From: Microbacterium sp. XT11
Lineage (GTDB): Bacteria; Actinomycetota; Actinomycetes; Actinomycetales; Microbacteriaceae
DNA: 64,000 nucleotides
Direction of reading: 5' to 3'
NCBI RefSeq assembly: GCF_001513675.1
Contig: NZ_CP013859.1
Span: forward strand, 2,729,081-2,793,080
Shown one piece after another: positions 2,981 through 49,751 of this stretch. The notes under the pieces were generated by a model. That model was not told the DNA's origin. It was given only the letters and a program-made list of their open reading frames with translations, and ran no database searches. The translations under genes were made by a program, and so were the position numbers. How positions within the stretch are numbered: position 1 is the stretch's first letter; every line of letters begins with the position of its first letter.

Positions 2981-3342
2981 CGAATGGGCCGACCTGTACG
3001 CCGGGTTCTGTTCCGGGGTTCTTCGCCCCTTCGACGGTCATCTCTCTCGGCGACACGTTGCCGTGGCGCTCCAGCGGTCTACCCGAGGACTCGGCGAGCC
3101 GCGTCAACATCCTCTGTCTGACCTTGCTCCGGACGAGGTTTACCTGGCGGGCCGCGTCACCACGGCCCCCGGTGGTCTCTTACACCACCCTTTCACCCTT
3201 ACCCCTTGCGGGGCGGTCTGCTCTCTGTGGCACTGTCTCGCGGATTGCTCCGGGTGGGCGTTACCCACCGTCCTGCCCTGTGGAGCCCGGACGTTCCTCG
3301 GTGCGGTCTCCCGCCACGCGACCGTCCAGTCGACCCATTCGC
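2981..3342 (-). ncRNA. rnpB: RNase P RNA, bacterial class A
   Basis: The minus strand carries the conserved RNase P RNA blocks. Near the 5' end is GAGGAACGTCCGGGCTCCAC followed by CAGGGCAGGACGGTGGGTAA, then AGAGACCACC and GACAGAGGATGTTG, and near the 3' end GAACAGAACCCGGCGTACAG. The 5' and 3' ends pair over about 13 bp (helix P1; one G-U), which fixes the limits at about 3342 and 2981. It is the catalytic RNA that trims tRNA 5' leaders. The length of about 360 nt and GC content fit an actinobacterial type A RNA. Ends may be off by a few bases. Confidence 0.95.
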
Positions 3343-12832: not shown

Positions 12833-13258
12833 TCAGCGACCCCCGGTGCCTTCCAGACGCATCCGCAGCGGAAGGGCTTGGTCGTCCAGGATGACCTGCG
12901 TCGCGAGCCCTGTCCGCGCGTGCATCACCACGGGTGCGCGGAGGTTCACATGCACGCCGTCCTCCGCGGGGTTCGCGACGACGAAGGTCTGCAGCGGCTC
13001 TCCGTCGGCCGCGCCCAGATCCTGCCGCACGACGTCCGGCAGGCTCGGCCGGCACCCCGGCGCGGCGACGGCGGCGTCGACGAGGAACAGCCGCACGTCG
13101 GCATCGACGGCTCGCAGCGCGTACAGCCCCTCGGCGCCGCCGATCGACACGAGGGTGAACTCGGTGTACGGAGCGAGACCCGGCATGGGGACGACGAACC
13201 TCACGGACACGGACTCGGTCCTCTCCTCGCGGGGCGCGGATGCGGTTGGCAGGGTCAT
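12833..13258 (-). CDS. fliW: FliW, flagellar assembly factor and CsrA antagonist
   Basis: 141 residues, the usual FliW length. Family signatures include a beta-rich N-terminus ending in MPGLAPYTEFTLV, the middle VRLFLVDAAVAAPGCRP and the C-terminal block FVVANPAEDGVHVNLRAPVVMHARTGLATQVIL, close to the NLxAPIVIN motif of FliW. In Bacillus FliW binds either flagellin or CsrA; when flagellin is exported, free FliW sequesters CsrA and relieves repression of flagellin translation. The ATG overlaps the flgL stop by 4 nt (ATGA), so it is the last gene of flgN-flgK-flgL-fliW. Its presence with csrA supports the leader hairpins reported here. Confidence 0.92.
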   Translation of the reverse strand: MTLPTASAPREERTESVSVRFVVPMPGLAPYTEFTLVSIGGAEGLYALRAVDADVRLFLVDAAVAAPGCRPSLPDVVRQDLGAADGEPLQTFVVANPAEDGVHVNLRAPVVMHARTGLATQVILDDQALPLRMRLEGTGGR

Positions 13259-16104: not shown

Positions 16105-16133
16105 ACTATCGCGACACCGCGCGCGGGAGTAAC
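16105..16133 (-). promoter_or_regulatory. Flagellar-class promoter of flgN-flgK-flgL-fliW
   Basis: On the minus strand AGTTAC (16134-16129), a 17-nt spacer and CGATAGT (16111-16105). Five other copies with an 18-nt spacer precede other flagellar operons in this window. The -10-like CGATAGT lies 57 nt before the flgN start. This leader has no ACGGA hairpin, unlike those of fliP, fliH, flgB and fliC. Confidence 0.75.
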
Positions 16134-16142
16134 TCGCTCCGC

Positions 16143-16169: not shown

Positions 16170-16421
16170 TCAGGACGACGTGGTAACGGGCCGCAGAGCG
16201 TCGAGGAGCGCGTTCTCGGCGGCGTCGCCGGACGCAGCCGACTGCGCGGCCTCCTGGTTCGCATCGCTGACCGCCAGCACGATCTCCGCGCGGTGGATGC
16301 GCTGGTCGCGCGGGGCTTCGATCCCCACCCGAACCCCGCCAGGGGTGACCGCGAGGATGGTGACCGTGATGTCGTCGCCGATCTTGATGCTCTCGTTCGC
16401 GCGCCGTGTCAGCACCAGCAT
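16170..16421 (-). CDS. csrA: CsrA, carbon storage/flagellin translational regulator
   Basis: 83 residues from ATG 16421. The start [18 protein letters not shown] and the block [18 protein letters not shown] are nearly canonical CsrA, including the RNA-binding arginine in LTRR and the IHR-E motif. Residues beyond about 55 form an Ala/Asp/Glu-rich tail longer than usual (61-75 residues is typical). CsrA dimers bind ANGGA in hairpin loops and block ribosome access. The gene is last in fliP-fliQ-fliR-flhB-flhA-csrA. Its own leader has a GCC/GGC hairpin with loop ACGGAA just before the ribosome-binding site, suggesting autoregulation. Confidence 0.95.
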
Positions 16422-16428
16422 GAGTTCC

Positions 16429-16440
16429 GCCTTCCGTGGC
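16429..16440 (-). promoter_or_regulatory. Putative CsrA-binding hairpin in the csrA leader
   Basis: On the minus strand a 3-bp GCC/GGC stem encloses ACGGAA, and the 3' arm runs directly into the purine-rich GGCGGA ahead of the csrA ATG (8 nt further). ANGGA in a loop next to the ribosome-binding site is the standard CsrA target. The stem is short, so on its own this site is modest evidence. Confidence 0.5.
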
Positions 16441-20495: not shown

Positions 20496-20770
20496 CAGCC
20501 GCCGTCCAGCAGCGATGGGATGCGCGCGAACAGCTCGTTCGTGAAGGCGACGGTCTCCGAGATCATCCAGTGCCCGCACACGAGGAGCGCGATGCCGACG
20601 GCGACGAGCTTCGGGACGAACGAGATCGTCATCTCCTGCACCTGAGTGACCGATTGCAGCAGCGAGATCGCGAAGCCGACCGCGAGCGCGGTGAGAAGCA
20701 GTGGTGCGCAGAGCTTCGCCGCGAGCAGCAGCGCCGACTGTCCGATGTCGATGACGGCCTCTGGGCTCAT
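20495..20770 (-). CDS. fliQ: FliQ, flagellar export gate protein
   Basis: 91 residues from ATG 20770, the exact FliQ length. Two hydrophobic hairpin helices (LLLAAKLCAPLLLTALAVGFAISLLQ and LVAVGIALLVCGHWMI) flank the conserved VTQVQEMTISFVPK. It is part of the export channel. It overlaps fliP by 4 nt and fliR by 1 nt. A longer open frame upstream of the ATG is antisense-like sequence inside fliP and is ignored. Confidence 0.96.
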   Translation of the reverse strand: MSPEAVIDIGQSALLLAAKLCAPLLLTALAVGFAISLLQSVTQVQEMTISFVPKLVAVGIALLVCGHWMISETVAFTNELFARIPSLLDGG

Positions 20771-21606
20771 CCCGTACCCCCGTCGTACGACTGCACGAGA
20801 GCCGTGATGACCATGCCCCAGCCGTCGATCAGGAGGAACAGCAGGATCTTGAAGGGCAGCGAGATCATGACCGGCGGGAGCATCATCATGCCCATCGACA
20901 TCAGCGCACTGGCGACCACGAGGTCGATAACGAGGAAGGGCACGAAGATCACGAAGCCGATGAGGAAGGCCGCGCGCAGTTCGCTGAGCATGAACGCCGG
21001 CACGAGGGTCTGCAGGGGGATGTCCGACGGGTCGGCGGGGTTCTCCAGCTGCGCGGCCCTGTGCATCAGGGCGATGTCCTCCTCGCGCGTGTACGACAGC
21101 ATCCAGTGACGCAGCGGCTCCTGCGCCAGCTCGAAGGCGCGCCCGAAGTCGACCTGGCCCGCCGTGAAGGGGCTCACCGCCACCGTGTTGATGTCGGTGA
21201 GCACGGGCCACATGATGAACAGCGTCAGGAACAGGCTCAGGCCCGCCAGCACCTGGTTCGGCGGGATCGACGGCAACGACAGGGCGTTGCGGGTGAGCGC
21301 GAGCACGACGAAGATCTTGGTGAAGCTCGACATCATCAACAGCAGCGCAGGCGCGACGCTGAGCACCGTGATGCCCAGCAGCGTCATGATGCTGTCGGAC
21401 GGCGTTCCGTTGATCCCGTTGATCGTCACGCCGCCGTCTCCGCCTTCGGCGTGGACGGCGAGCCGGGTGCTCGCGTGTGCGGCGCCGGCCTGCAGGAGGA
21501 CCGCCGCGGCGGCGATCGTCCCGGCGGCGCCGGCGAGCACCGATGCCCTGCGCCGTGCACCGCTCGGACGGCGAGGCGGCACGGCTCTCGCGGCGGTTTC
21601 GGGCAC
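20767..21606 (-). CDS. fliP: FliP, flagellar export gate protein
   Basis: 279 residues from GTG 21606, with GGGAG upstream. An N-terminal signal-like hydrophobic segment (VLAGAAGTIAAAAVLLQAGAAHA) precedes the core, as usual for cleaved FliP. The core has MMSSFTKIFVVLALTRNALSLPSIPPNQVLAGLSLFLTLFIMWP and the C-terminal FVIFVPFLVIDLVVASALMSMGMMMLPPVMISLPFKILLFLLIDGW spread over residues 85-265. It is the first gene of fliP-fliQ-fliR-flhB-flhA-csrA, behind a flagellar-class promoter and a leader with a conserved ACGGATC hairpin. Confidence 0.96.
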   Translation of the reverse strand: MPETAARAVPPRRPSGARRRASVLAGAAGTIAAAAVLLQAGAAHASTRLAVHAEGGDGGVTINGINGTPSDSIMTLLGITVLSVAPALLLMMSSFTKIFVVLALTRNALSLPSIPPNQVLAGLSLFLTLFIMWPVLTDINTVAVSPFTAGQVDFGRAFELAQEPLRHWMLSYTREEDIALMHRAAQLENPADPSDIPLQTLVPAFMLSELRAAFLIGFVIFVPFLVIDLVVASALMSMGMMMLPPVMISLPFKILLFLLIDGWGMVITALVQSYDGGTG

Positions 21607-21633
21607 GGTGGCGCTCCCAGGAAGGTGACATGG

Positions 21634-21672
21634 CCTATCCGTAGCCGTGGGGGCGAGCGATCCGTGCTCGCC
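21634..21672 (-). promoter_or_regulatory. fliP leader with putative CsrA-binding hairpins
   Basis: On the minus strand a perfect 7-bp stem (arms GGCGAGC and GCTCGCC) encloses loop ACGGATC (21652-21672), 4 nt downstream of the -10 box. A second site CTACGGATAGG (21634-21644) can form a short GGC/GCC stem and resembles the selected CsrA consensus. The first hairpin recurs with the same loop in the fliH and flgB leaders. Confidence 0.65.
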
Positions 21673-21676
21673 GTCG

Positions 21677-21707
21677 ACTATCGCGACGCGGCGGGCCCGC
21701 GGTAACC
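21677..21707 (-). promoter_or_regulatory. Flagellar-class promoter of the fliP operon
   Basis: Minus-strand GGTTAC (21707-21702), 18-nt spacer, CGATAGT (21683-21677). It is preceded by GTCG at the -10 as in four other copies. The start codon of fliP is 71 nt downstream. This is one of the six copies that define the element. Confidence 0.8.
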
Positions 21708-25359: not shown

Positions 25360-25571
25360 TCCCCCGCGTTCCGGATGAGGGCGTCCGCGGCACCGAGCAC
25401 TCGCGCGCGGTAGGCGACGATCAGGTCGACCAGGCGCTCCAGGGGCTCGGCGATCACATAGACATGCCCGTCGACCATGTGCAGCGTGGTGTCCGGAGAA
25501 GCGTGCACGCGCTCGATCAGGTCGGGATTGACCCCGAACCGCGTACGGTCGAGGCGGGTGACGATGATCAT
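25356..25571 (-). CDS. flbD: FlbD/SwrD family flagellar protein
   Basis: 71 residues starting MIIVTRLDRTRFGVNPDLIERVHASPDTTLHMVDG. This is the FlbD family signature (VTRLDG..N.DLIE...TPDTVITL.DG) found between flgE and motA in Gram-positive flagellar operons. The Bacillus homologue SwrD raises stator torque. It is first in the operon with motA, motB, fliM, fliN and fliO, 39 nt behind a flagellar-class -10 box, with GGAGAA before the ATG. Confidence 0.93.
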   Translation of the reverse strand: MIIVTRLDRTRFGVNPDLIERVHASPDTTLHMVDGHVYVIAEPLERLVDLIVAYRARVLGAADALIRNAGE

Positions 25572-25610
25572 CGGGTTCTCCGGGCGTCGGAAGAGCGGAA
25601 GGCTCCCCGG

Positions 25611-25641
25611 ACTATCGCGACGGGGCCTGTGCCTGGTAACC
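25611..25641 (-). promoter_or_regulatory. Flagellar-class promoter of the flbD-motA operon
   Basis: Minus-strand GGTTAC (25641-25636), 18-nt spacer, CGATAGT (25617-25611). The flbD start codon is 39 nt further, giving a short leader without an ACGGA site. The next upstream gene, a GNAT acetyltransferase on the same strand, ends 46 nt before the -35 box, so this promoter isolates the operon from it. Confidence 0.8.
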
Positions 25642-28141: not shown

Positions 28142-29614
28142 TCAGGCGAAGGTGTCGAAGGCTGCGGTCGGATCGGCGATGCGGATGCCGCGCACGACAT
28201 CCGCATCGTGCAGGCGAGCCGTCCGTCGGCCGGTCTCGTCCCCGGCAGGGGCGTGACCGTGCTGCCCGTGGTCCGGCGCTGCCCCGCCGTCGCCGGGTTG
28301 AGGGCTCCGATCGCCGCCGGGAGCGCCCCCTGCGCCGGATCCGAGACTGAGCGTGGCGTGCGGGCTGACGGAGGCGAGATCGCGCCGGAGGTCGGCGACG
28401 ATCGCGCGAAGAGCGTCTCGGCCGGCATCGGATGCACCGAGCAGCTCGATGCGCAGCTCCCCCGACGCGCTGACATGAGCCCGCACCGTCACAGGACCGA
28501 GCGCCTCCGGGTCGACGGTGAGCGTCATCTGGTGGGCTCCCCCCGGCCGCTGGGCGATGGCGATGACGCTCGGCGCCAGCTGGGCAGACAGCGGACGGGG
28601 CTGCGTGGCCTCGGAGGTCGCGCGCGTGTCGGCCTCTCCCGAGGGCGTCATGCCAAGGGGAACGGGGACGACGGGACCGACGGATGCCGGCTGCTCGCGG
28701 CCGTACGCAGCCGAGCGCACCGGGGCGTCCATGCCGGCGGGGACGAGCGACCGCGGACCATGCTCACCGGGCACGGAGGCCGCATCGACGGATCCGGTCT
28801 GCGCGCCGGACGCCGCCGCGACCGTGGCGCCGGGGTCCCCCGCGCGCGGCACAGCCGAGTCGGCCGCTTCGCCGGATGCCTCGAGGACCGACTGCGCTGC
28901 ATCGGCGCTCGGCGGACGATTCGCGCTCACAGGGCGATCCGTGCTCGCGGCACTGTACGACGATGGTCGGTCGTCGCTGCCTCCGTGGACGGCAGCGGCG
29001 ACGATCGACATCGGGCTCGAGGGAGAGGCGCCACCGGGAGCGCGGTCGCCGAGCGCGGGGTCGAGGGACCTGCCAAGAGCTGCCCCGTCGCTCGCTGCAA
29101 CGTCGGACTGCGGCCCGTTCCGCGCCGTGTCAGCGGGCAGCGCTCCGTCGCTCGCGTGTGCGGTCTGCAGAGCGATGGCGTCGCCGGAGGTCGAACGGGG
29201 GCTCCTGTGCTGCCCGCCGTCCGCGTCCCCGCCGGGGACGACGGTCGCGGCCCGTACAGGCAGCCCGTCCGTCGCGGGCGATGCGGGGACGGAGGGGTCG
29301 AGAGTCGCGGGACCTGTCGCCGCGGCGTCCGCGGGGACGTGCACAGGCCACGCGCCCCTGTTCTGCAACGCGAGGAGGGCGACCACGTCCGCGGGTGTCG
29401 CGGCGGCATCCGTGGTGTCCACTGCGGCTGTCGCCGCCTCGGCTGCCGCACCACCGCCGGGGCGACGCGCCGGTTCCTCGGCTCCGCCCGCGGCAAGGGT
29501 GAGCACGGCGTCCCCGAGCGCAGCCGCGAAGTCGTCGTCCGGTGCCGCCCCAGAGGCGGACGCCGCGCGGCCTCCGCTGGTCGTCGACGCCGCCGTCGCG
29601 ATGATCATGCTCAT
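28142..29614 (-). CDS. fliK: FliK, hook-length control protein
   Basis: 490 residues. The long N-terminal and central part is low-complexity, rich in Ala, Asp, Pro and Ser, as expected for the molecular ruler. The C-terminal Flg_hook domain shows AQRPGGAHQMTLTVDPEALGPVTVRAHVSASGELRIELLGASDAGRDALRAIVADLRRDL over residues about 365-430, including the LxPEELGxVxV-like motif. It measures hook length and triggers the FlhB switch. It overlaps fliJ by 4 nt. The extended disordered part is longer than in Salmonella (405 residues). Confidence 0.92.
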   Translation of the reverse strand: MSMIIATAASTTSGGRAASASGAAPDDDFAAALGDAVLTLAAGGAEEPARRPGGGAAAEAATAAVDTTDAAATPADVVALLALQNRGAWPVHVPADAAATGPATLDPSVPASPATDGLPVRAATVVPGGDADGGQHRSPRSTSGDAIALQTAHASDGALPADTARNGPQSDVAASDGAALGRSLDPALGDRAPGGASPSSPMSIVAAAVHGGSDDRPSSYSAASTDRPVSANRPPSADAAQSVLEASGEAADSAVPRAGDPGATVAAASGAQTGSVDAASVPGEHGPRSLVPAGMDAPVRSAAYGREQPASVGPVVPVPLGMTPSGEADTRATSEATQPRPLSAQLAPSVIAIAQRPGGAHQMTLTVDPEALGPVTVRAHVSASGELRIELLGASDAGRDALRAIVADLRRDLASVSPHATLSLGSGAGGAPGGDRSPQPGDGGAAPDHGQHGHAPAGDETGRRTARLHDADVVRGIRIADPTAAFDTFA

Positions 29615-30057: not shown

Positions 30058-31397
30058 GCGGCGGCACCTCCGAGGTCTCCGGTGAGAGCGGCGACGAGAG
30101 CAGCGAGACGCGCCCACGACTCGCCCGCCGGTGTGTGGTCGTCCATGGTCTGCGTGAGGAATGCCGCGATCTCCTTGTCGTGGGCGAGCGCGGCGTCCAC
30201 GAGGGGATCGGCGCCGGTGCGGTAGGCGCCGATGTCGATGAGGTCCCGTGCGTCGTGCCGTGCGGCGAGCACACCGCGCAGGGCCGCCGCATCGCGTCGC
30301 TGTACGGGCGTGGTGATCTTCGTGGCGAGGCGGGAGACGGAGACGAGCGGATCCACCGCCGGATAGCGCCCGCGCACCGCCAGACCGCGGTCGAGCACGA
30401 TGTGCCCGTCGAGGATGCCCCGCGCGGCATCCGCGATGGGCTCATTGTGGTCGTCGCCGTCGACGAGCACGGTGTAGAGCCCCGTGATCGACCCCGGCCT
30501 GCTCGTCCCCGCCCGCTCAAGCAGGCGGGCGAGCACCGAGAACGTCGACGGCGGGTATCCGCGGGTCGCCGGGGGCTCCCCCGCGCTCAGACCGATCTCG
30601 CGCTGCGCCATGGCGACCCTCGTGAGCGAGTCCATCATGAGCACGACGTCGAGCCCGTCGTCGCGGAACTGCTCGGCGATGCGGGTGGCGACGAACGCCG
30701 CGCGCAGGCGCGCCATCGCCGGCTGATCCGAGGTCGCGACGACGACGACCGACCGGGCGAGCCCGTCGGGCCCGAGGTCGTCCTCCAGGAACTCCCGCAC
30801 CTCGCGGCCGCGCTCTCCGATGAGCGCGATGACGGACACGTCGGCCGTGGAGCCGCGCGCGATCATCGACAGCAGCGAGGACTTCCCGACTCCCGACCCG
30901 GCGAACATCCCGAGGCGCTGGCCGACGCCCACCGGCGTCAGCGTGTCGAGCACGCGGATGCCGAGGCTCAGCTGCCTCTCGATGCGGCGCCGATCCAGCA
31001 CATCCGGCGCGTCGTGGTGAAGCCCGACACGCGGCACGTCGGCACCGATCGGGCCGAGTCCGTCGAGAGGACGACCGAGGGCGTCGACGACGCGACCGAG
31101 GAGAGCCTTGCCGACAGGCACCTGCACGGACGCGCCGGCGTGCTCGGCGCGCGCGCCCACGGTGATCCCGTCGAGGGAACCCAGCGGCATGCAGCGCGCA
31201 GTGGCTCCGTCGATGGACACGACCTCCGCGTCGACCACGCTGCGCTCCGCGCTCGCGATGCGGAGACGGTCGCCGACGGCGGCGTCGACGCCGCCCACCT
31301 CGACGGCGAGTCCTCGTACCGATCGCACCGTGCCGGAGCGCACCGGGCGCACCGCCTCGAGGGCCCGTCGCCACGCGACGCTCGTGGTCGTCGTCAT
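30054..31397 (-). CDS. fliI: FliI, flagellum-specific ATPase
   Basis: 447 residues. The Walker A motif GSGVGKSSLL (about residue 170), SVIALIGERGREVREFLEDDLG, Walker B-like LDVVLMMDSLTRVAMAQREIGL and the ERAGTSRPGSITGLYTVLVDGDDHNEPIADAARGILDGHIVLDR region (several blocks) are diagnostic of FliI/SctN ATPases. It hydrolyses ATP to unfold and feed export substrates. It overlaps fliH and fliJ by 4 nt each. The length and all catalytic motifs are normal. Confidence 0.97.
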   Translation of the reverse strand: MTTTTSVAWRRALEAVRPVRSGTVRSVRGLAVEVGGVDAAVGDRLRIASAERSVVDAEVVSIDGATARCMPLGSLDGITVGARAEHAGASVQVPVGKALLGRVVDALGRPLDGLGPIGADVPRVGLHHDAPDVLDRRRIERQLSLGIRVLDTLTPVGVGQRLGMFAGSGVGKSSLLSMIARGSTADVSVIALIGERGREVREFLEDDLGPDGLARSVVVVATSDQPAMARLRAAFVATRIAEQFRDDGLDVVLMMDSLTRVAMAQREIGLSAGEPPATRGYPPSTFSVLARLLERAGTSRPGSITGLYTVLVDGDDHNEPIADAARGILDGHIVLDRGLAVRGRYPAVDPLVSVSRLATKITTPVQRRDAAALRGVLAARHDARDLIDIGAYRTGADPLVDAALAHDKEIAAFLTQTMDDHTPAGESWARLAALVAALTGDLGGAAA

Positions 31398-32026
31398 GGC
31401 ACGACCTCGCCGTCGTCCCCCCGGAGGGCCGCGGCGGCGCGTGCGAAGGCTCGTCCGATCCGGGTGTCGACCGCCCCCTGATCGATGTCGACGATCGCCC
31501 CACCGGGGTCGACGTCCGGCGACGCGATGACGTCGATCCCTGCGAGCAGCGGCGCCGCCACCGGATCATCGAGGATCAGCCGGTGCTCCCGTTCGGCGAA
31601 CGCGACGCGGGTCCACCGCTCGACCGGCATGGCGTCCAGCGCGCGCCGGAGTGCGTGCGCCGCCGCGCGCGCCGGATCGGAGAGCTCGGCGCCGACGACG
31701 CAGGAGGCGAGCTCCAGAGCCAGCTCCTCGATCCGAGCGGCCGACGGCCCGGTCAGCTCGTCGATCCGCCGGGCGACCGCGTCGTGGGCAGCACGCAGCG
31801 CTGTCGCGGCATCCGCCAGGGCGCGAGCCTGAAGATCGAGGACCCGCCGCCGCTCCGCCTCCTCGGCCGACGCACGCCGCCGCGCCTCCTCGAGTCCGAT
31901 CCGCCGGCCTTCCGCGTAGCCCTCCGCGTATCCGCGCGTGCGCGCGCGGTCCGCCTCGCCGCGCAGATCGATCGGCACCGCGCCGACGCGAGGGACGGCG
32001 AGCGGCGTGAAGGCGGGTTCGTGCAC
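31394..32026 (-). CDS. fliH: FliH, export ATPase regulator
   Basis: 210 residues from GTG 32026, selected because CCGGAGAAC lies just upstream; the longer frame to 32095 would begin in the promoter leader. A helical, Ala/Arg/Glu-rich N-terminal half contains the YAEGYAEGRRIGLEEARRRA repeat typical of FliH GxxxG-like stretches. The C-terminal part (ARAAAHALRRALDAMPVERWTRVAFAEREHRLIL, DPGGAIVDIDQGAVDTRIGRAF) is FliH/YscL-like. FliH dimers hold FliI and link it to FliN. It is the first gene of fliH-fliI-fliJ-fliK-flgD-flgE. Confidence 0.92.
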   Translation of the reverse strand: MHEPAFTPLAVPRVGAVPIDLRGEADRARTRGYAEGYAEGRRIGLEEARRRASAEEAERRRVLDLQARALADAATALRAAHDAVARRIDELTGPSAARIEELALELASCVVGAELSDPARAAAHALRRALDAMPVERWTRVAFAEREHRLILDDPVAAPLLAGIDVIASPDVDPGGAIVDIDQGAVDTRIGRAFARAAAALRGDDGEVVP

Positions 32027-32055: not shown

Positions 32056-32096
32056 GGCCTGTCCGTGGCCCGAAGGGCGAGCGATCCGTGCTCACC
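32056..32096 (-). promoter_or_regulatory. fliH leader with two putative CsrA-binding hairpins
   Basis: On the minus strand, 4 nt after the -10 box, a 7-bp stem (one G-U) encloses loop ACGGATC (32076-32096), nearly identical to the fliP leader hairpin. Five nt further, a perfect 4-bp GGCC/GGCC stem encloses ACGGACA (32056-32070). The fliH ribosome-binding site follows about 20 nt later. Two ANGGA loops at this spacing suit one CsrA dimer. Confidence 0.65.
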
Positions 32097-32100
32097 GGGG

Positions 32101-32131
32101 ACTATCGCGACGACCGGTCGAGGGCGTAACC
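32101..32131 (-). promoter_or_regulatory. Flagellar-class promoter of the fliH operon
   Basis: Minus-strand GGTTAC (32131-32126), 18-nt spacer, CGATAGT (32107-32101). It occupies the 121-nt gap between fliG and fliH and shows that fliH starts a new transcript although it follows fliG closely. The leader to GTG 32026 is about 70 nt. Confidence 0.8.
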
Positions 32132-34868: not shown

Positions 34869-35183
34869 TCAGGCCTGCATCCTCATGATCTCGGTGAACG
34901 CCGAGACTCCGCGGTCGCGGACGGCGACCATGAGGTCGAGCGTGACGGAGGCGCGCGCCGACGCGATCATCGCCTTGTGGATGTCCTGCAGGTCTCCCGT
35001 CACCGCCTGCACGGCCAGCTCGTTCGACGTCGACTGCAGGCGCTGCAGCTCCTCCACCGCCCCGGTGAGGGACGAACCGAACGCCGCGGCGCCCGTCGTC
35101 GACGGGGAGGCGTCGGATTCGAAGCTCAACGGCGTGAGCCCCCCGACTCCGGTCGGCGGCACCGGTCCGATCGCGGCGGCCAT
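34869..35183 (-). CDS. fliE: FliE, MS ring-rod junction protein
   Basis: 104 residues from ATG 35183, overlapping the flgC stop by 1 nt (TGATG). The C-terminal part has the FliE signature: AVTGDLQDIHKAMIASARASVTLDLMVAVRDRGVSAFTEIMRMQ, close to the LHDVMIAxEKAxLSLxLTVQVRNKxVEAYQEIMRMQV pattern. FliE connects the MS ring to the proximal rod. The N-terminal 35 residues are Gly/Pro/Ser-rich. The long upstream reading to 35522 is antisense-like sequence within flgC and is not used. Confidence 0.95.
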   Translation of the reverse strand: MAAAIGPVPPTGVGGLTPLSFESDASPSTTGAAAFGSSLTGAVEELQRLQSTSNELAVQAVTGDLQDIHKAMIASARASVTLDLMVAVRDRGVSAFTEIMRMQA

Positions 35184-35575
35184 CAGGCGCGCCCGATCTG
35201 CAGCGCGGCCTCGTAAGTCGCCTTCGCCCTGTCGACGACAGCCGCGTTCGCCTCGTAGCCGCGCTGGGCGACGATGAGCATGCTCATCTGATCGCCGAGA
35301 TCGATGTCGGGGTACTGCACGTAGCCGTCGGCGTCGGCGTACGGATGGTCCGGGTCGTACACCCGCTTGGCTTCGGCCTGCGACTCGACCACACCGGCGA
35401 CATAGACGCCGGGACTCTCCGTTCCGGCACGCACGGTGACGAGCTTCTCGCGGAAGGGTTCGTCCCCTGCGGGAGTCGCCGTGTTCACGTTGGCGATGTT
35501 GTCGCTGAGGGCGTCGAGCCACTTGCGGTGCGCGGTGAGGCCGGTCGCGGCGATGCCGATGGCGTCGAAGGTCAT
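35183..35575 (-). CDS. flgC: FlgC, proximal rod protein
   Basis: 130 residues from ATG 35575. The N-terminal motif FDAIGIAATGLTAHRKWLDALSDNIANVNTATPAGDEPFREKL and the C-terminal block YPDIDLGDQMSMLIVAQRGYEANAAVVDRAKATYEAALQIGRA are both typical rod-family ends. VRAGTESPGVYVAGVVES is the FlgC middle. It overlaps flgB by 4 nt. With FlgB and FliE it builds the proximal rod. Confidence 0.96.
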   Translation of the reverse strand: MTFDAIGIAATGLTAHRKWLDALSDNIANVNTATPAGDEPFREKLVTVRAGTESPGVYVAGVVESQAEAKRVYDPDHPYADADGYVQYPDIDLGDQMSMLIVAQRGYEANAAVVDRAKATYEAALQIGRA

Positions 35576-35919
35576 GCGGACGCCTGCCCGATCGCCTTGG
35601 TGATCGATGCGGCCTGGCCGCCGATGGCCTGGCTCGCGAACTGGAACCGCAGCACGGTGTCGATGTTCGACAGCGTCTCCGTGTCGAGGTTGACGTTGTT
35701 CCCGTTCAGCCGGGTGGGCTCCAGCGAGCGGTGCACGGTCGGCTCGACGACTCCCGTCCCGTCGGCTACTGCCGCGCGGAGCGCGTCCTCGAAGCGCACC
35801 CGCTTGGCGTGGTAGCCGGGGGTGTTGACGTTCGCGATGTTCTCGGCGATGGAGCGCTGGCGCAGTGCCAGCCCATCGAGGGCGCTGACCAGCGCCGTGG
35901 CGGTGACGGAATCGAGCAC
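35572..35919 (-). CDS. flgB: FlgB, proximal rod protein
   Basis: 115 residues from GTG 35919, with GGAG upstream. ALRQRSIAENIANVNTPGYHAKRVRFEDAL and the NGNNVNLDTETLSNIDTVLRFQFASQAIG end are diagnostic of FlgB. A longer frame to 35991 would begin inside the promoter and is not used. It is the first gene of flgB-flgC-fliE-fliF-fliG, behind a flagellar-class promoter and a leader with two ACGGATC hairpins. Confidence 0.95.
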   Translation of the reverse strand: MLDSVTATALVSALDGLALRQRSIAENIANVNTPGYHAKRVRFEDALRAAVADGTGVVEPTVHRSLEPTRLNGNNVNLDTETLSNIDTVLRFQFASQAIGGQAASITKAIGQASA

Positions 35920-35945
35920 GGGACACTCCGGAGAAGGGGAGGAAG

Positions 35946-35983
35946 AGCCGATCCGTGGCCTGTCGTCGAGCGATCCGTGCTCA
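35946..35983 (-). promoter_or_regulatory. flgB leader with two putative CsrA-binding hairpins
   Basis: On the minus strand, hairpin one (35967-35983) has GAGC/GCTC plus a G-U pair around loop ACGGATC, and starts 7 nt after the -10 box. Hairpin two (35946-35960) has GCC/GGC plus a U-G pair around the same loop ACGGATC. About 27 nt later comes the flgB start. The two identical 7-nt loops on different stems argue that the loop, not the stem sequence, is conserved. Confidence 0.65.
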
Positions 35984-35989
35984 GCGCCC

Positions 35990-36020
35990 ACTATCGCGAC
36001 GTCTCACCTCGCCCGTAACC
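35990..36020 (-). promoter_or_regulatory. Flagellar-class promoter of the flgB-fliG operon
   Basis: Minus-strand GGTTAC (36020-36015), 18-nt spacer, CGATAGT (35996-35990). It lies 3 nt beyond the stop of the preceding fliT-like gene on the same strand. The leader to GTG 35919 is about 65 nt. Confidence 0.8.
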
Positions 36021-38214: not shown

Positions 38215-39075
38215 TCAGCGGAGCAGCTGCAGGACGCCCTGGCCCGACTGGTTCGCCTGCGCCAGCATGGCCGTGCCCGCCTGCTGCAGGATGTTCGCCG
38301 CGGTGTACTTGACCATCTCCGCAGCCATGTCGGTGTCGGCGATGCGGCTCTTGGCCGCCGAGAGGTTCTCGGCCGAGACCTGCAGCGAGTTGATGGTCGA
38401 CTCGAAGCGGTTCTGCACGGCACCGAGGTCGGCGCGGGCGGACGAGACGCTCTTGATCGCGGCGTCGACCGTGGTGATGGTCGCGGCGGCGAGCGTGGGC
38501 GTGGCGAAGCCGTCGGTCGTGACGATGTCCGCCTTCAGGTCGGCGGCCAGCGTCTTGATGTCGGCCGAGCCGAGGTTCACCGTGATCTGGCTCGACGCGG
38601 AGCCGTCCGCACCGACCTGGAAGCTCAGCACCCCGTCGCCGGCGGCGCCCGCCGATGCATCGAGCAGCTTGATGCCGTTGAAGTTGGTGTTGTCGGAGAT
38701 GCGGGTGAGCTCGTCGACGAGCTGCGTCACCTCGGTGGTGATCGCCTTGCGGGAGTCGACGTTGTTCGAGTCGGATCCTGCCTGCACCGCGAGGTCGCGG
38801 ATGCGCTGCAGGATGGAGTGGACCTCGGTCAGCGCGCCTTCCGCGGTCTGGATGACCGAGATGCCGTCCTGCGCGTTGCGGGCTGCGACGTTCAGGCCGT
38901 TGACCTGCGAGCGCAGGCCCTCGGAGATGGCGAGACCGGCGGCGTCGTCGGCTGCGCGGTTGATGCGCAGACCGCTCGAGAGCTTCTCGAGCGACTTCGA
39001 GACGTCGGTCTGGTTCGCCGACAGGTTGCGGTAGGCGTTGAGAGCGCTGACGTTGGTGGCGATCTGAAGACCCAT
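38215..39075 (-). CDS. fliC: FliC, flagellin
   Basis: 286 residues. The conserved N-terminal ([57 protein letters not shown], several blocks) and C-terminal ([44 protein letters not shown]) helices form the D0/D1 core. The central variable domain is only about 90 residues, so the filament surface is simple. It is the only flagellin gene in the window. A flagellar-class promoter lies 59 nt upstream, and the leader carries two ACGGA sites, one overlapping the ribosome-binding site, as in the FliW-CsrA control of Bacillus hag. Confidence 0.97.
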
Positions 39076-39080
39076 GATGT

Positions 39081-39123
39081 TCCTCCGTGGTTATGGGTGT
39101 GGTCGCGGACCCGTCCGTGGGCC
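39081..39123 (-). promoter_or_regulatory. fliC leader with putative CsrA-binding sites
   Basis: On the minus strand a 5-bp stem (GGCCC/GGGTC, one G-U) encloses ACGGAC (39108-39123). Downstream, CCACGGAGGA (39081-39090) includes the ribosome-binding site itself, 6 nt before the ATG. A hairpin site followed by a site on the Shine-Dalgarno is the layout known for CsrA repression of hag in Bacillus subtilis. Confidence 0.7.
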
Positions 39124-39133
39124 TGCACACCTC

Positions 39134-39164
39134 ACTGTCGCGACGGAGGGCTCTCCCCGTAACC
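39134..39164 (-). promoter_or_regulatory. Flagellar-class promoter of fliC
   Basis: Minus-strand GGTTAC (39164-39159), 18-nt spacer, CGACAGT (39140-39134). One base differs from the CGATAGT of the other five copies. It lies between the second sigma gene (stop at 39180) and fliC. The leader is about 52 nt. Confidence 0.8.
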
Positions 39165-39179
39165 GTGATCGTCCGGCGG

Positions 39180-40037
39180 TCATCGCACGGTCGCGAGCTC
39201 CTCGGTCCGCGAGGCCCGCCGTGTCGCGTCTGCACCGAAGACCGCGTCGAAGAAGTCCGCTCTGGTGCGGGTCGACCGGTCGGTCGCCGCTCCGCGCTCC
39301 CACGCGTCCATGGCCTCCCGCATGAGGGCGAGCCCGCGCGTGCGCAGCTTCGAGACGTAGGCGTGACTGACGTCGAGCTCGTCCGCGATGTCCTTCACCA
39401 TGCGGTCCTCGAGGTAGATCCCGCGGATCACGCGACGCATGGCGTCCGGGAGCGCGTCGATCACACGGTGCAGCATGGCCCTGGTCTCCGACCGCTCGGC
39501 GGCGTGCTCCGGAAGCACGATGCTGTCCGTGAGGTCGGCCGCCTGCCGCCCGCTCTCGATGTCGAAGTGCTCCTCGAAGCTCGTGGCGGTGCGGACCATC
39601 TCGTCGAGCTGAAGGGCCTCGGCGACCACGCCGACCGCGAGCCCTGACTCGGCGGCCAGCTCGGCCACGGTGCCTGCCCGTCCGGTGCGCGACTGGACGA
39701 GTTCCGCGGCCGCCCGCACCCTCTCGATGCGCTCCCGGCTGCGTTCGCCCGCAGGGTCGGCCCTGCGCATCTCCGAGAGCATCGCCCACGTGATCTGGCT
39801 GCTGGCGAAAGCGCCGAACGGGATGCCGCGCGACGGATCGTACGCGAGTGCGGCGCGGGCGAGTCCGAAGCGCGCGGCCGAAAGGAGGTCATCGAGGTCG
39901 ACGTGCGCGGCCGTGCGGGCCTTCTCCACGGCGAGGAAGGTCGCGAGCGGCATGTTGTCCCTCGCGAGCTTCTCGGCGGTGGCGCTCGGTCGGGTCTTCA
40001 GTGCAGAATCAGGAGAAACATCAGAAGTGTTCGACAA
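39180..40037 (-). CDS. Sigma-70 family factor, FliA/WhiG-like (second of two)
   Basis: 285 residues from a TTG start with GGAG upstream. Region 2 is visible as VDLDDLLSAARFGLARAALAYDPSRGIPFGAFASSQITWAMLSEMRRADP. Region 3 (GRAGTVAELAAESGL) and region 4 with helix-turn-helix MVKDIADELDVSHAYVSKLRTRGLALM follow. The N-terminal 30 residues are Ser/Thr-rich, and a 40-residue tail follows region 4. It resembles the factor at 11322 in length and in the VSHAxVS helix, and both lack region 1. It probably reads the flagellar-class promoters, but which of the two does so cannot be told. Confidence 0.88.
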   Translation of the reverse strand: MSNTSDVSPDSALKTRPSATAEKLARDNMPLATFLAVEKARTAAHVDLDDLLSAARFGLARAALAYDPSRGIPFGAFASSQITWAMLSEMRRADPAGERSRERIERVRAAAELVQSRTGRAGTVAELAAESGLAVGVVAEALQLDEMVRTATSFEEHFDIESGRQAADLTDSIVLPEHAAERSETRAMLHRVIDALPDAMRRVIRGIYLEDRMVKDIADELDVSHAYVSKLRTRGLALMREAMDAWERGAATDRSTRTRADFFDAVFGADATRRASRTEELATVR

Positions 40038-40197: not shown

Positions 40198-40270
40198 GGG
40201 CCTTTAGCTCAGCTGGTAGAGCAACGGTTTTACACACCGTAGGTCGTCGGTTCGATCCCGGCAGGGCCCA
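40198..40270 (+). tRNA. tRNA-Val (anticodon UAC)
   Basis: A 73-nt cloverleaf. The acceptor stem GGGCCTT pairs with AGGGCCC (one G-U), the D-arm contains AGCTCAGCTGGTAGAGC, the anticodon stem ACGGT/ACCGT encloses loop TTTACAC with anticodon TAC, and the T-arm has GTTCGATC. The discriminator base is A. CCA is not encoded (CCC follows), so it is added after transcription. It decodes GUA and, by wobble, other valine codons. Confidence 0.96.
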
Positions 40271-48515: not shown

Positions 48516-49751
48516 ATGACCAAGCGCATCGTCGTCACCGGCATCGGCGCCACCTCCGCCATCGGCGGCACTGCTCCGGACAACTGGACCAACCTGCTCG
48601 CCGGCATGTCCGGAGGTCGCACCCTCGAGCACGAGTGGGTCGCCGAGATGGAGCTTCCCGTGACCTTCGCCGCCGAGGCGATGGTCCGACCGGACGAGGT
48701 GCTCGCCCGGCCCGTGGCGAAGCGTCTCGATCCATCGTCGCAGTTCGCCCTCGTCGCGGCGATGGAGGCGTGGGAGGATGCCGGTTCACCCGACGTCGAT
48801 CCCGATCGCCTCGGCGTCGACTTCGCGACTGGCATCGGCGGCGTGTGGACCCTGCTCGACGCCTGGGACACGCTGCGCGAGAAGGGGCCTCGGCGCGTCA
48901 TGCCCATGACGGTCCCGATGCTCATGCCCAACTCCGCCGCCGGCAACCTGTCGCTCCACTTCGGCGCCCGCGCGTTCGCCCGCACCGTCGCATCTGCGTG
49001 CGCCTCGAGCACCGAGTCGCTCGTGAACGCCTACGAGCACCTGCAGGCCGGCCTCGCCGACGTCGTCATCACGGGCGGCACCGAGTCGGCCATCCACCCG
49101 ATCACGGTTGCCGCGTTCTCGTCGATGCAGGCCCTGTCGCGCCGGAACGACGATCCGGCCGGTGCGTCGCGGCCGTACTCCGTCGACCGCGACGGCTTCG
49201 TCATGGGTGAGGGCGCAGCCGTGCTGATCCTCGAGACGGAGGAGCACGCGAAGGCGCGCGGGGCGAAGATCTATGCCGAACTCGTCGGCGGCGGTGTGAC
49301 AGCCGACGCCTACCACATCACCGCCAACGCCCCGGAGGGAGCCGCACGCGCGGTGCGCCTCGCCCTGGCCGCCGCCGGTCGCACGCCCGACGACATCACC
49401 CACGTCAACGCGCACGCGACGTCGACCCCCGTGGGCGACCCCAACGAGTACACCGCTCTCAAAGACGTGATCGGCGACCGCGTGCACGAGATCCCGGTGT
49501 CCGCGACCAAGGCGTCGACCGGTCACCTGCTCGGCGGCACCGGCGCCCTGGAGGCCATCTTCACCGTCCTGGCCGTGAAGAACCGCATCGCTCCGCCGAC
49601 CATCAACATCTCCACGCAGGACCCAGAGATCCCACTGCGCGTCTCGGGCGATCCGCAGCCGCTCGGCGACGGACCCCAGCTGGCCATCAGCAACTCCTTC
49701 GGCTTCGGCGGACACAACGCCGTCATCGCCATCGCCAGCGTCGACGACTGA
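48516..49751 (+). CDS. fabF: Beta-ketoacyl-ACP synthase II
   Basis: 411 residues. The catalytic Cys is near 162 in VASACASSTES; the two His are in HVNAHATSTPVGD (about 300) and STGHLLGGTGALEAIF (about 335); the C-terminal NSFGFGGHNAVI is present. It elongates acyl-ACP chains. It ends the fabD-fabH-acpP-fabF cluster and is followed by a strong terminator. In actinobacteria this synthase may also influence membrane fluidity. Confidence 0.96.
   Translation: MTKRIVVTGIGATSAIGGTAPDNWTNLLAGMSGGRTLEHEWVAEMELPVTFAAEAMVRPDEVLARPVAKRLDPSSQFALVAAMEAWEDAGSPDVDPDRLGVDFATGIGGVWTLLDAWDTLREKGPRRVMPMTVPMLMPNSAAGNLSLHFGARAFARTVASACASSTESLVNAYEHLQAGLADVVITGGTESAIHPITVAAFSSMQALSRRNDDPAGASRPYSVDRDGFVMGEGAAVLILETEEHAKARGAKIYAELVGGGVTADAYHITANAPEGAARAVRLALAAAGRTPDDITHVNAHATSTPVGDPNEYTALKDVIGDRVHEIPVSATKASTGHLLGGTGALEAIFTVLAVKNRIAPPTINISTQDPEIPLRVSGDPQPLGDGPQLAISNSFGFGGHNAVIAIASVDD

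Follow-up and report, generated by a model that had tools for sequence, protein, structure and literature searches.

The window analysed here, the whole 64,000-nucleotide stretch of Microbacterium sp. XT11 DNA, carries a flagellar gene cluster on the minus strand. The fliP leader lies between the end of fliO (about 21720) and the fliP GTG codon (21606), with the following features.

20767..21606, minus strand: fliP (Pfam FliP, 4.6e-74)
21677..21707, minus strand: fliP promoter GGTTAC-N18-CGATAGT (FliA/sigma28-like), one of five copies in the genome and kept in relatives
21652..21672, minus strand: fliP hairpin 1, GGCGAGC-ACGGATC-GCTCGCC, a perfect 7-bp stem 45 nt upstream of the fliP GTG
21669..21655, minus strand: conserved core of fliP hairpin 1, GAGC-ACGGATC-GCTC
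21642..21638, minus strand: second ACGGA of the fliP leader
21632..21646, minus strand: fliP hairpin 2, GGCT-ACGGATA-GGCC, four pairs including one U-G
21604..21618, minus strand: fliP ribosome site GGGAG (21618..21614) and GTG start (21606), with partial complementarity to hairpin 1

A first-pass annotation of this DNA had reported a perfect 7-bp hairpin with ACGGATC in its loop and a second ACGGA farther on, and both are exactly as described (21672..21652 and 21642..21638, minus strand); that the second ACGGA sits in a hairpin of its own, GGCT-ACGGATA-GGCC, had been missed. The heptamer ACGGATC is unremarkable alone, with 16 occurrences in the window against 18.85 expected, and the fliP leader taken whole shows no excess stability over shuffled sequences (z +0.60). 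Among the 199 ANGGA motifs on the minus strand of the window, only those at fliP hairpin 1 and at 49183 combine a loop of 5-9 nt with a stem score of at least 7.

There are exactly five matches to the promoter pattern GGTTAC-N18-CGAYAGT in the 3.48-Mb genome, all of them in the flagellar cluster (before fliC, flgB, fliH, flbD, and fliP), and the reversed pattern, searched as a control, had 0 matches in the genome. The hairpin core GAGCACGGATCGCTC occurs exactly three times in the same 3.48 Mb, directly behind the promoters of flgB, fliH, and fliP. The corresponding features elsewhere in the cluster are these.

35945..36020, minus strand: flgB leader, with promoter 36020..35990, hairpin 1 core 35982..35968, and hairpin 2 35960..35946
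35572..35919, minus strand: flgB, GTG start (Pfam Flg_bb_rod, 1.6e-5)
35569..35183, minus strand: flgC-like gene downstream of flgB (Flg_bbr_C, 1.1e-7)
35174..34869, minus strand: fliE, downstream of the flgC-like gene (FliE, 1.4e-22)
32056..32131, minus strand: fliH leader, with promoter 32131..32101, hairpin 1 32096..32076, and hairpin 2 GGCC-ACGGACA-GGCC 32070..32056
31394..32026, minus strand: fliH, GTG start (Pfam FliH, 1.6e-4; 22.0 bits, slightly below the 24.1-bit cut-off)
25554..25641, minus strand: flbD promoter and leader without ANGGA hairpins, an internal negative control
16105..16134, minus strand: variant promoter AGTTAC-N17-CGATAGT before the gene at the flgN position, whose leader has no ANGGA hairpins
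39180..40037, minus strand: FliA-like sigma factor (Pfam Sigma70_r4, 1.6e-7; r2, 6.3e-6)

The sigma28 consensus is of the type CTAA-N-GCCGATA, which the shared promoter resembles, and the FliA-like sigma factor is its probable reader. The flgB, fliH, and fliP units are alike from the promoter to about codon 5, with first codons like GTG-YYC-GAA-TCC (window positions 36020-35902, 32131-32012, and 21707-21592, minus strand), and it seems that, within the genus, fliH and fliP received a copy of the entire flgB initiation module. A one-mismatch copy of the core, GAGCACGGATCGCCC, lies at 28932-28946 (minus strand) inside the fliK region, where the conserved stem cannot fully form. The gene at the flgN position matched no Pfam family; its leaders in seven loci (L175-L181; 16134-16000, minus strand, in the window) follow the same promoter and contain other inverted repeats without ANGGA, such as GTGGCGGTCGCCTCCGCCAC in L177 and L181. 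In one relative (L182, G011:C1:847231), GGTTAC-N18-CGATAGT stands outside the flagellar cluster, before a short gene starting MDHQPTTDDCG, and that genome has another match at C13:362444. The window also contains clear Rfam matches to a class A RNase P RNA (2981-3337, minus strand) and a tRNA gene (40198-40270, plus strand).

FliP was present in 23 of 99 sampled genomes of the genus and the GGTTAC promoter in 57 of 366. Compared by eye, clade-B FliP starts from the genus are similar to that of a locus named Microbacterium sp. MYb62. Leaders were collected from stretches of at most 20 kb in 22 other FliP-bearing and 29 further promoter-bearing genomes, leaving out near-identical, single-hit, and unlisted cases, and the resulting set of 110 comprises 45 flgB leaders (37 from clade A with GGTTAC promoters and 8 from clade B with CTAAC-N-GCCGATAG promoters), 36 fliP leaders, and 29 fliH leaders, leaders that resembled fliP but had no GGCTA being counted under fliH. 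The A and the GGA are constant at both sites in all 110, a constancy that is partly made by the method since extraction required ANGGA, and no classified leader was without a site. The N and loop positions 6 and 7 vary: N is C, G, or T in 98, 11, and 1 leaders at site 1, and C, G, T, or A in 81, 15, 8, and 6 at site 2. The two hairpins have the same loop on different arms, the sites are 21-24 nt apart (23 nt at fliP), and the element always lies 7-9 nt downstream of the -10 box (110/110). The inner four pairs of hairpin 1 are kept in every leader, whereas pairs 5, 6, and 7 form in 65, 40, and 30 of the 110; the perfect 7-bp stem emphasized at first is real at fliP in this genome, but as a functional unit it is ruled out by conservation limited to four pairs. 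The expectation that close relatives would retain the loop did hold, in all 36 fliP leaders extracted from the genus.

In a search with FlgB by tblastn, independent of the promoter, both hairpins were recovered in 46 of 47 flgB leaders of the genus. The exception (L129) has an insertion in hairpin 1, and a GGA remains there in another small hairpin, GAGTG-AGGAT-CACTC. When fliH genes are located by protein, only those with a promoter of their own turn out to have the leader; in clade B neither fliP nor fliH has the leader, and these genes lie close to or overlap the preceding gene. The leader is also missing at fliP in L092 and L128. Of the 34 flbD leaders downstream of the shared promoter, not one contains an ANGGA hairpin of at least four pairs, a promoter-independent search found one ANGGA hairpin within 100 nt at 2 of 49 flbD-like starts, and seven flgN-position leaders read by eye had none. 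In Curtobacterium (L018, 5376, plus strand), the leader of a flbD-like gene has GGCCC-ACGGAC-GGGCC and a second ACGGA, from which it appears that sites may have moved between operons.

The flagellin and csrA genes in the same cluster carry related motifs, placed differently.

39073..39164, minus strand: fliC leader, with promoter 39164..39134 and hexaloop hairpin GGCCC-ACGGAC-GGGTC 39123..39108
within 39090..39073, minus strand: second fliC ACGGA, over the Shine-Dalgarno (SD) sequence (ACGGAGGA)
38215..39075, minus strand: fliC, flagellin (Pfam Flagellin_N, 8.5e-48)
16429..16440, minus strand: csrA hairpin GCC-ACGGAA-GGC, with only three pairs, which overlaps the ribosome site of csrA
16170..16421, minus strand: csrA, 83 aa (Pfam CsrA, 1.1e-21)
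12833..13258, minus strand: fliW, predicted CsrA antagonist (Pfam FliW, 1e-15)

The genome contains both csrA and fliW as well as CsrA-type sites in its flagellin leader, csrA being located in the flagellar cluster behind flhA. The CsrA protein aligns without gaps over residues 1-51 with the RsmE of 2jpp, including the RNA-binding residues L4 and R44, and also with the 83-residue CsrA of 5dmb, a FliW complex. The fliC hairpin covaries strongly: across 31 distinct sequences of the genus it has 33 two-sided cells against 9.6 after shuffling (0 of 500 shuffles reach 33) and is 91.5% paired against 22.6-48.4% when slid. Starts of fliC located independently of the promoter have an ANGGA hairpin in 36 of 39 cases and none in 3. 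An ANGGAN hairpin is present in all 11 clade-A csrA leaders found (that of this genome, nine relatives, and L195), with N being T in 7, C in 3, and G in 1; of 8 csrA leaders read outside clade A, in clade B and in other genera, 7 are without it and one, that of L006 (CCC-ACGGAA-GGG), has it. A motif search of 13 downstream loci located csrA in 12 of them, and in L185 it was not among the matches listed. Upstream of clade-B csrA (L193, L194, L013) there is no ANGGAN hairpin, and a TAGGCT box stands a few nucleotides before the ATG; the mRNA may be leaderless there. In the present genome csrA, read by eye, seems to have its own promoter. Feedback on csrA, which had been supposed to run through the fliP operon, need not do so, because csrA seems to have this promoter and an ANGGAN hairpin of its own.

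To follow the element beyond the genus, a covariance model of the hairpin pair (R1, 44 nt) was built. In its own genome R1 scored the three leaders at about 1e-12 (2.8e-12 for fliP) and the next match at 0.004, with 150 of 9565 candidates scored. In the family, about 80 of 299 genomes (counted by hand) have a match at E<=1e-6. Most of the weaker matches, which at E<=0.1 occur in 234 genomes, are noise. In the order, 48 of 297 genomes match at E<=1e-5, in 22 of 94 genera and ten families besides its own. Loci from eight of these ten families were read, and by eye the element is more alike among them than the promoters that precede it. A match to the FliE region lies downstream in 29 of 29 family loci and 25 of 27 order loci read. 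Among 55 loci of the family and the order, a set that omits the fliP locus L245 of the own genus, a FlgB-like start stands directly downstream of the leader in 53 by a wider pattern and in 31 by a stricter one. The two misses are L252, where the leader pattern was unmatched, and L259 (G820:C32:95813-95855), where another strong leader copy (5.3e-11) precedes a gene that begins MTSITAMPSIQARIAEI and is not flgB. Since the pair is found order-wide before flgB, it is the leader of flgB that seems to be ancestral, and those of fliH and fliP, including the one with which this analysis began, look like later copies. A chance hairpin is ruled out by the repetition at three operons and the recurrence across the order.

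The distribution has limits. By R1, 41 of the 88 FliP genomes of the order are without the leader, and in 22 named loci, mostly of other actinobacterial genera and with flgB expected to lie outside most of them, the best match outside the window reached 21.7 bits (E 0.0014). Rfam returned only RNase P and tRNA for the window at the gathering threshold, and only tRNA for five leader loci at E<=1. In the order sample of 297 genomes, CsrA was found in 87, FliP in 88, and FliW in 88; CsrA and FliP occur together in 84, CsrA alone in 3, FliP alone in 4, and neither in 206. Of the 48 genomes with the leader, 47 have CsrA, and the exception is 76% complete. Because CsrA and flagella coincide almost totally, this co-occurrence cannot test the leader. 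Since CsrA is nearly confined to genomes with flagella (FliP is present in 84 of the 87 that have CsrA, and 206 of 297 genomes have neither), its targets are likely flagellar, with the leader the obvious candidate.

Compensatory changes in the stem around a constant loop had been proposed as a sign of CsrA control. They are plain in the flagellin hairpin, as described above, and scarce in the fliP hairpin, in which the core pairs are invariant. The four core pairs of hairpin 1 never vary in the 110 leaders and hardly vary in other families, an invariance that binding of CsrA to ANGGA does not by itself explain. In 40 diverse flgB, fliH, and fliP leaders the stems of the pair are 94.2% paired, against 25-40% when slid and 93.4% when shuffled (59/500); the covariation score is 0.119 against 0.099 in shuffles (4/500), with 4 two-sided cells against 1.6 (22/500). 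Across other genera the pair has no excess of covariation (183/500 shuffles). With stems almost invariant, the argument for the hairpin pair rests on the pairing, on the shared loop with different arms, and on the analogy with flagellin, and not on covariation. Energy-based folding often favours other pairings: hairpin 1 has a probability above 0.5 in 4 of 45 flgB, 13 of 29 fliH, and 24 of 35 fliP leaders, and hairpin 2 in 12 of 45, 1 of 29, and 1 of 35, respectively. The loops are 7 nt long in flgB, fliH, and fliP and 6 nt in fliC and csrA, and 7-nt loops may lower the affinity for CsrA.

Neither hairpin covers the ribosome site at flgB, fliH, or fliP. The segment GAGCACGG of hairpin 1 is, however, complementary to the start region CCGUGCUC. 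Among the 45 flgB genes of the genus, the start has CCGTGCTC in 28, and all eight letters pair in 24, where CCGTG meets an N that is C. The predicted duplex between hairpin 1 and the start comes to -16.05 kcal/mol for flgB, -14.12 for fliH, and -13.73 for fliP, against -6.52, -7.49, and -8.25 with shuffled starts, and is better than shuffled starts at p<=0.05 in 43 of 45, 25 of 29, and 25 of 36 cases, which are related sequences and not independent trials. In 44 flgB leaders of other genera the mean is -12.3 against -6.5 kcal/mol. Pairing of site 2 with the start, tried as an alternative, reached p<=0.05 only in 2 of 45 flgB, 12 of 29 fliH, and 5 of 36 fliP leaders. All 45 flgB genes of the genus start with GTG, and fliC and flbD with ATG (67/67). 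The starts assigned to fliH (29 GTG) and fliP (33 GTG and 3 TTG) follow partly by construction, as the choice allowed mainly GTG or TTG, which was not so for flgB. Of 53 FlgB-like frames in other genera, 41 have GTG as their first in-frame start, 11 have ATG, and 1 has TTG. In six loci of one other genus flgB starts ATG-CCS and cannot form the start helix, and no sign was seen that the N of site 1 covaries with the bases immediately upstream of the start codon.

The folding models bear on the direction of control. In flgB of the genus, folding predicts a concealed start and a displaced hairpin 1, whose probability is 0.18 compared with 0.50 when the downstream sequence is shuffled, with 6.6 expected long-range pairs compared with 1.3; forcing both hairpins costs about 8.5 kcal/mol. 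With the hairpins forced, the ribosome site of flgB becomes more open by over 0.1 in 20 of the 45 leaders of the genus and in 29 of the 44 others, and it closes in none. The mean opening in the genus, from 0.32 to 0.42, is no larger than in the control with shuffled downstream sequence (0.42 to 0.55), whereas that in other genera, from 0.29 to 0.45, exceeds its control (0.42 to 0.47). At fliP the site closes in 13 of 35 and opens in 8, and at fliH it opens in 8 of 29 and closes in 5, starts being imprecise in both. On these models, activation of flgB, fliH, and fliP by CsrA is the favoured direction, although rated slightly below an even chance.

Taken together, the elements are best read as a two-site CsrA leader on the flgB, fliH, and fliP operons, with FliW-CsrA control of the main flagellar operons, and this reading is considered likely. 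Binding of CsrA to the leaders, judged from sequence, is rated somewhat more probable still, and very probably the FliW-CsrA switch controls the main flagellar operons here, csrA included. The suggestion of a CsrA-type site outside flagellin thus seems sound, as the A and GGA are constant, the N varies, and CsrA and FliW accompany flagella; its scope appears wider than had been claimed. The 5' end of the fliP-fliQ-fliR-flhB-flhA mRNA would be a two-site CsrA target in which the 23-nt spacing of the ANGGA motifs suits one CsrA dimer; the flgB and fliH operons would have the same leader, and fliC and csrA would present ANGGA over their ribosome sites. CsrA would bridge both sites and be released by FliW. 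Without CsrA, GAGCACGG of hairpin 1 would pair with the start region CCGUGCYC and hide the start, and CsrA on the nascent hairpin 1 would prevent this pairing, so that CsrA would favour early gene expression and restrain flagellin until hook completion frees FliW. One FliA-type promoter is common to the six transcription units found, and the leaders are therefore the only feature found that separates early from late genes. In its widest form, an order-wide RNA switch would set the order of assembly after transcription, free CsrA keeping the early operons on and flagellin and csrA off, and FliW reversing both; in that form the proposal is somewhat unlikely, but if true, CsrA and its antagonist FliW would replace the class II/III transcription cascade.

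CsrA may instead bind the same two sites and repress the early operons, through ribosome hindrance or faster decay, so that FliW would turn on all of them together; this is a serious alternative, though rated as less likely than activation. Repression is the common mode of CsrA (PMC7652899; this and the other papers are cited from excerpts), several flagellar mRNAs are repressed by the Campylobacter jejuni protein (PMC4894983), the distance from the end of hairpin 2 to the ribosome site is roughly 12-20 nt, within reach of an initiating ribosome, and forced hairpins close the fliP ribosome site (13/35) more often than they open it (8/35). Against this, the SD sequence of flgB, fliH, and fliP is overlapped by neither site, unlike that of fliC and csrA, and binding of CsrA to hairpin 1 and start-codon pairing are mutually exclusive, which favours opening.

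The palindromes GAGC-N7-GCTC and GGCC-N7-GGCC downstream of the promoter could be a DNA operator bound by a transcription factor, and the arms of hairpin 1, invariant in 110 leaders and nearly so in other families, do behave like an operator half-site, and the element lies 7-9 nt after the -10 box in all of the 110. A symmetric site nonetheless leaves unexplained the constant off-centre A-GGA around a free N, the recurrence of one loop in two palindromes whose arms differ, and the related ANGGA hairpins over the fliC and csrA ribosome sites, and an operator is improbable. A structured 5' terminus, shielding mRNA ends or recognized by some protein besides CsrA, would suit the probable position of hairpin 1 within a few nucleotides of the inferred transcript start. 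Protection and CsrA are also compatible, as in Escherichia coli flhDC, where two CsrA sites near the 5' end protect from RNase E (PMC7652899). Protection alone requires no A-GGA in both loops, however, and the flbD and flgN-position leaders on the same promoter type do without the element, which makes this reading decidedly improbable. That the fliP and fliH leaders are simply a copied flgB block from promoter to codon 5, similar by descent and without function, would agree with the likeness of the three over just that span; it is very improbable given that linkers, outer pairs, and promoter spacers have diverged and loops and core stems have not (35 distinct fliP leaders).

The two-site CsrA leader proposed here can be set beside several known systems. 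The view that control of the export-gate operon, csrA included, would be an undescribed feedback loop is too strong, given csrA autoregulation in E. coli (PMC7652899), the many flagellar mRNAs on which CsrA acts in C. jejuni (PMC4894983), and the flagellin prediction for Kineococcus (PMC2587704). In the literature found, the predicted Kineococcus flagellin site (PMC2587704) is the only actinobacterial CsrA target, as far as the excerpts go, and more may exist; no description of this two-hairpin leader was seen in the literature searched. In Kineococcus radiotolerans csrA lies in a flagellar island, and the SD region of flagellin was predicted to match the hag CsrA site; the excerpted text considers flagellin only, with no two-hairpin leader for early operons, and notes csrA beside flagellar genes in three other actinobacteria (PMC2587704). 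The name csrA also appears in a Microbacterium strain, in the part of that paper seen without a flagellar target (PMC10384088).

In C. jejuni the flaA leader forms a pair of ANGGA stem-loops that show compensatory changes, and the second of them lies over the ribosome site (PMC4894983); the fliC leader here follows the same plan. CsrA in that species binds many flagellar mRNAs with FliW as antagonist, but in the enrichment data excerpted fliP is not enriched (1.2x, 0.5x), flgB hardly (1.6x), and fliH in one column (4.8x, the other 1.3x) (PMC4894983); in the present case a single type of leader stands before several operons and is found again throughout an order. In Bacillus subtilis hag, as in fliC here, a CsrA site lies over the flagellin SD and the leader has two sites (PMC2587704, PMC7652899), with csrA and fliW in the genome, whereas flgB, fliH, and fliP here have a two-site 5' leader off the SD and the csrA site overlaps it. 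CsrA of E. coli inhibits its own translation (PMC7652899), which the csrA hairpin over the SD fits, although here csrA is in the flagellar cluster behind flhA and its stem has three pairs only. CsrA targets present ANGGA, of which the GGA is essential, in hairpin loops. They prefer a six-nt loop, and the site spacing of 21-24 nt falls in the 10-63 nt range for bridging (PMC7652899). In E. coli flhDC two CsrA sites lie near the 5' end of a flagellar mRNA, as here (PMC7652899), but flhDC encodes the master regulator, whereas in this cluster structural operons are individually marked and hairpin 1 can pair with the start codon.

Should CsrA open the early operons and at the same time close flagellin, FliW-CsrA would be a two-way assembly switch and not a flagellin thermostat. 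CsrA targets beyond flagellin, binding at the 5' end of flhDC, and csrA autoregulation are already known in other phyla, from the excerpts cited; what appears to be new is a conserved two-hairpin leader of the CsrA type for early flagellar operons, and as a conserved element without an Rfam match it offers a testable handle on the order of flagellar assembly.
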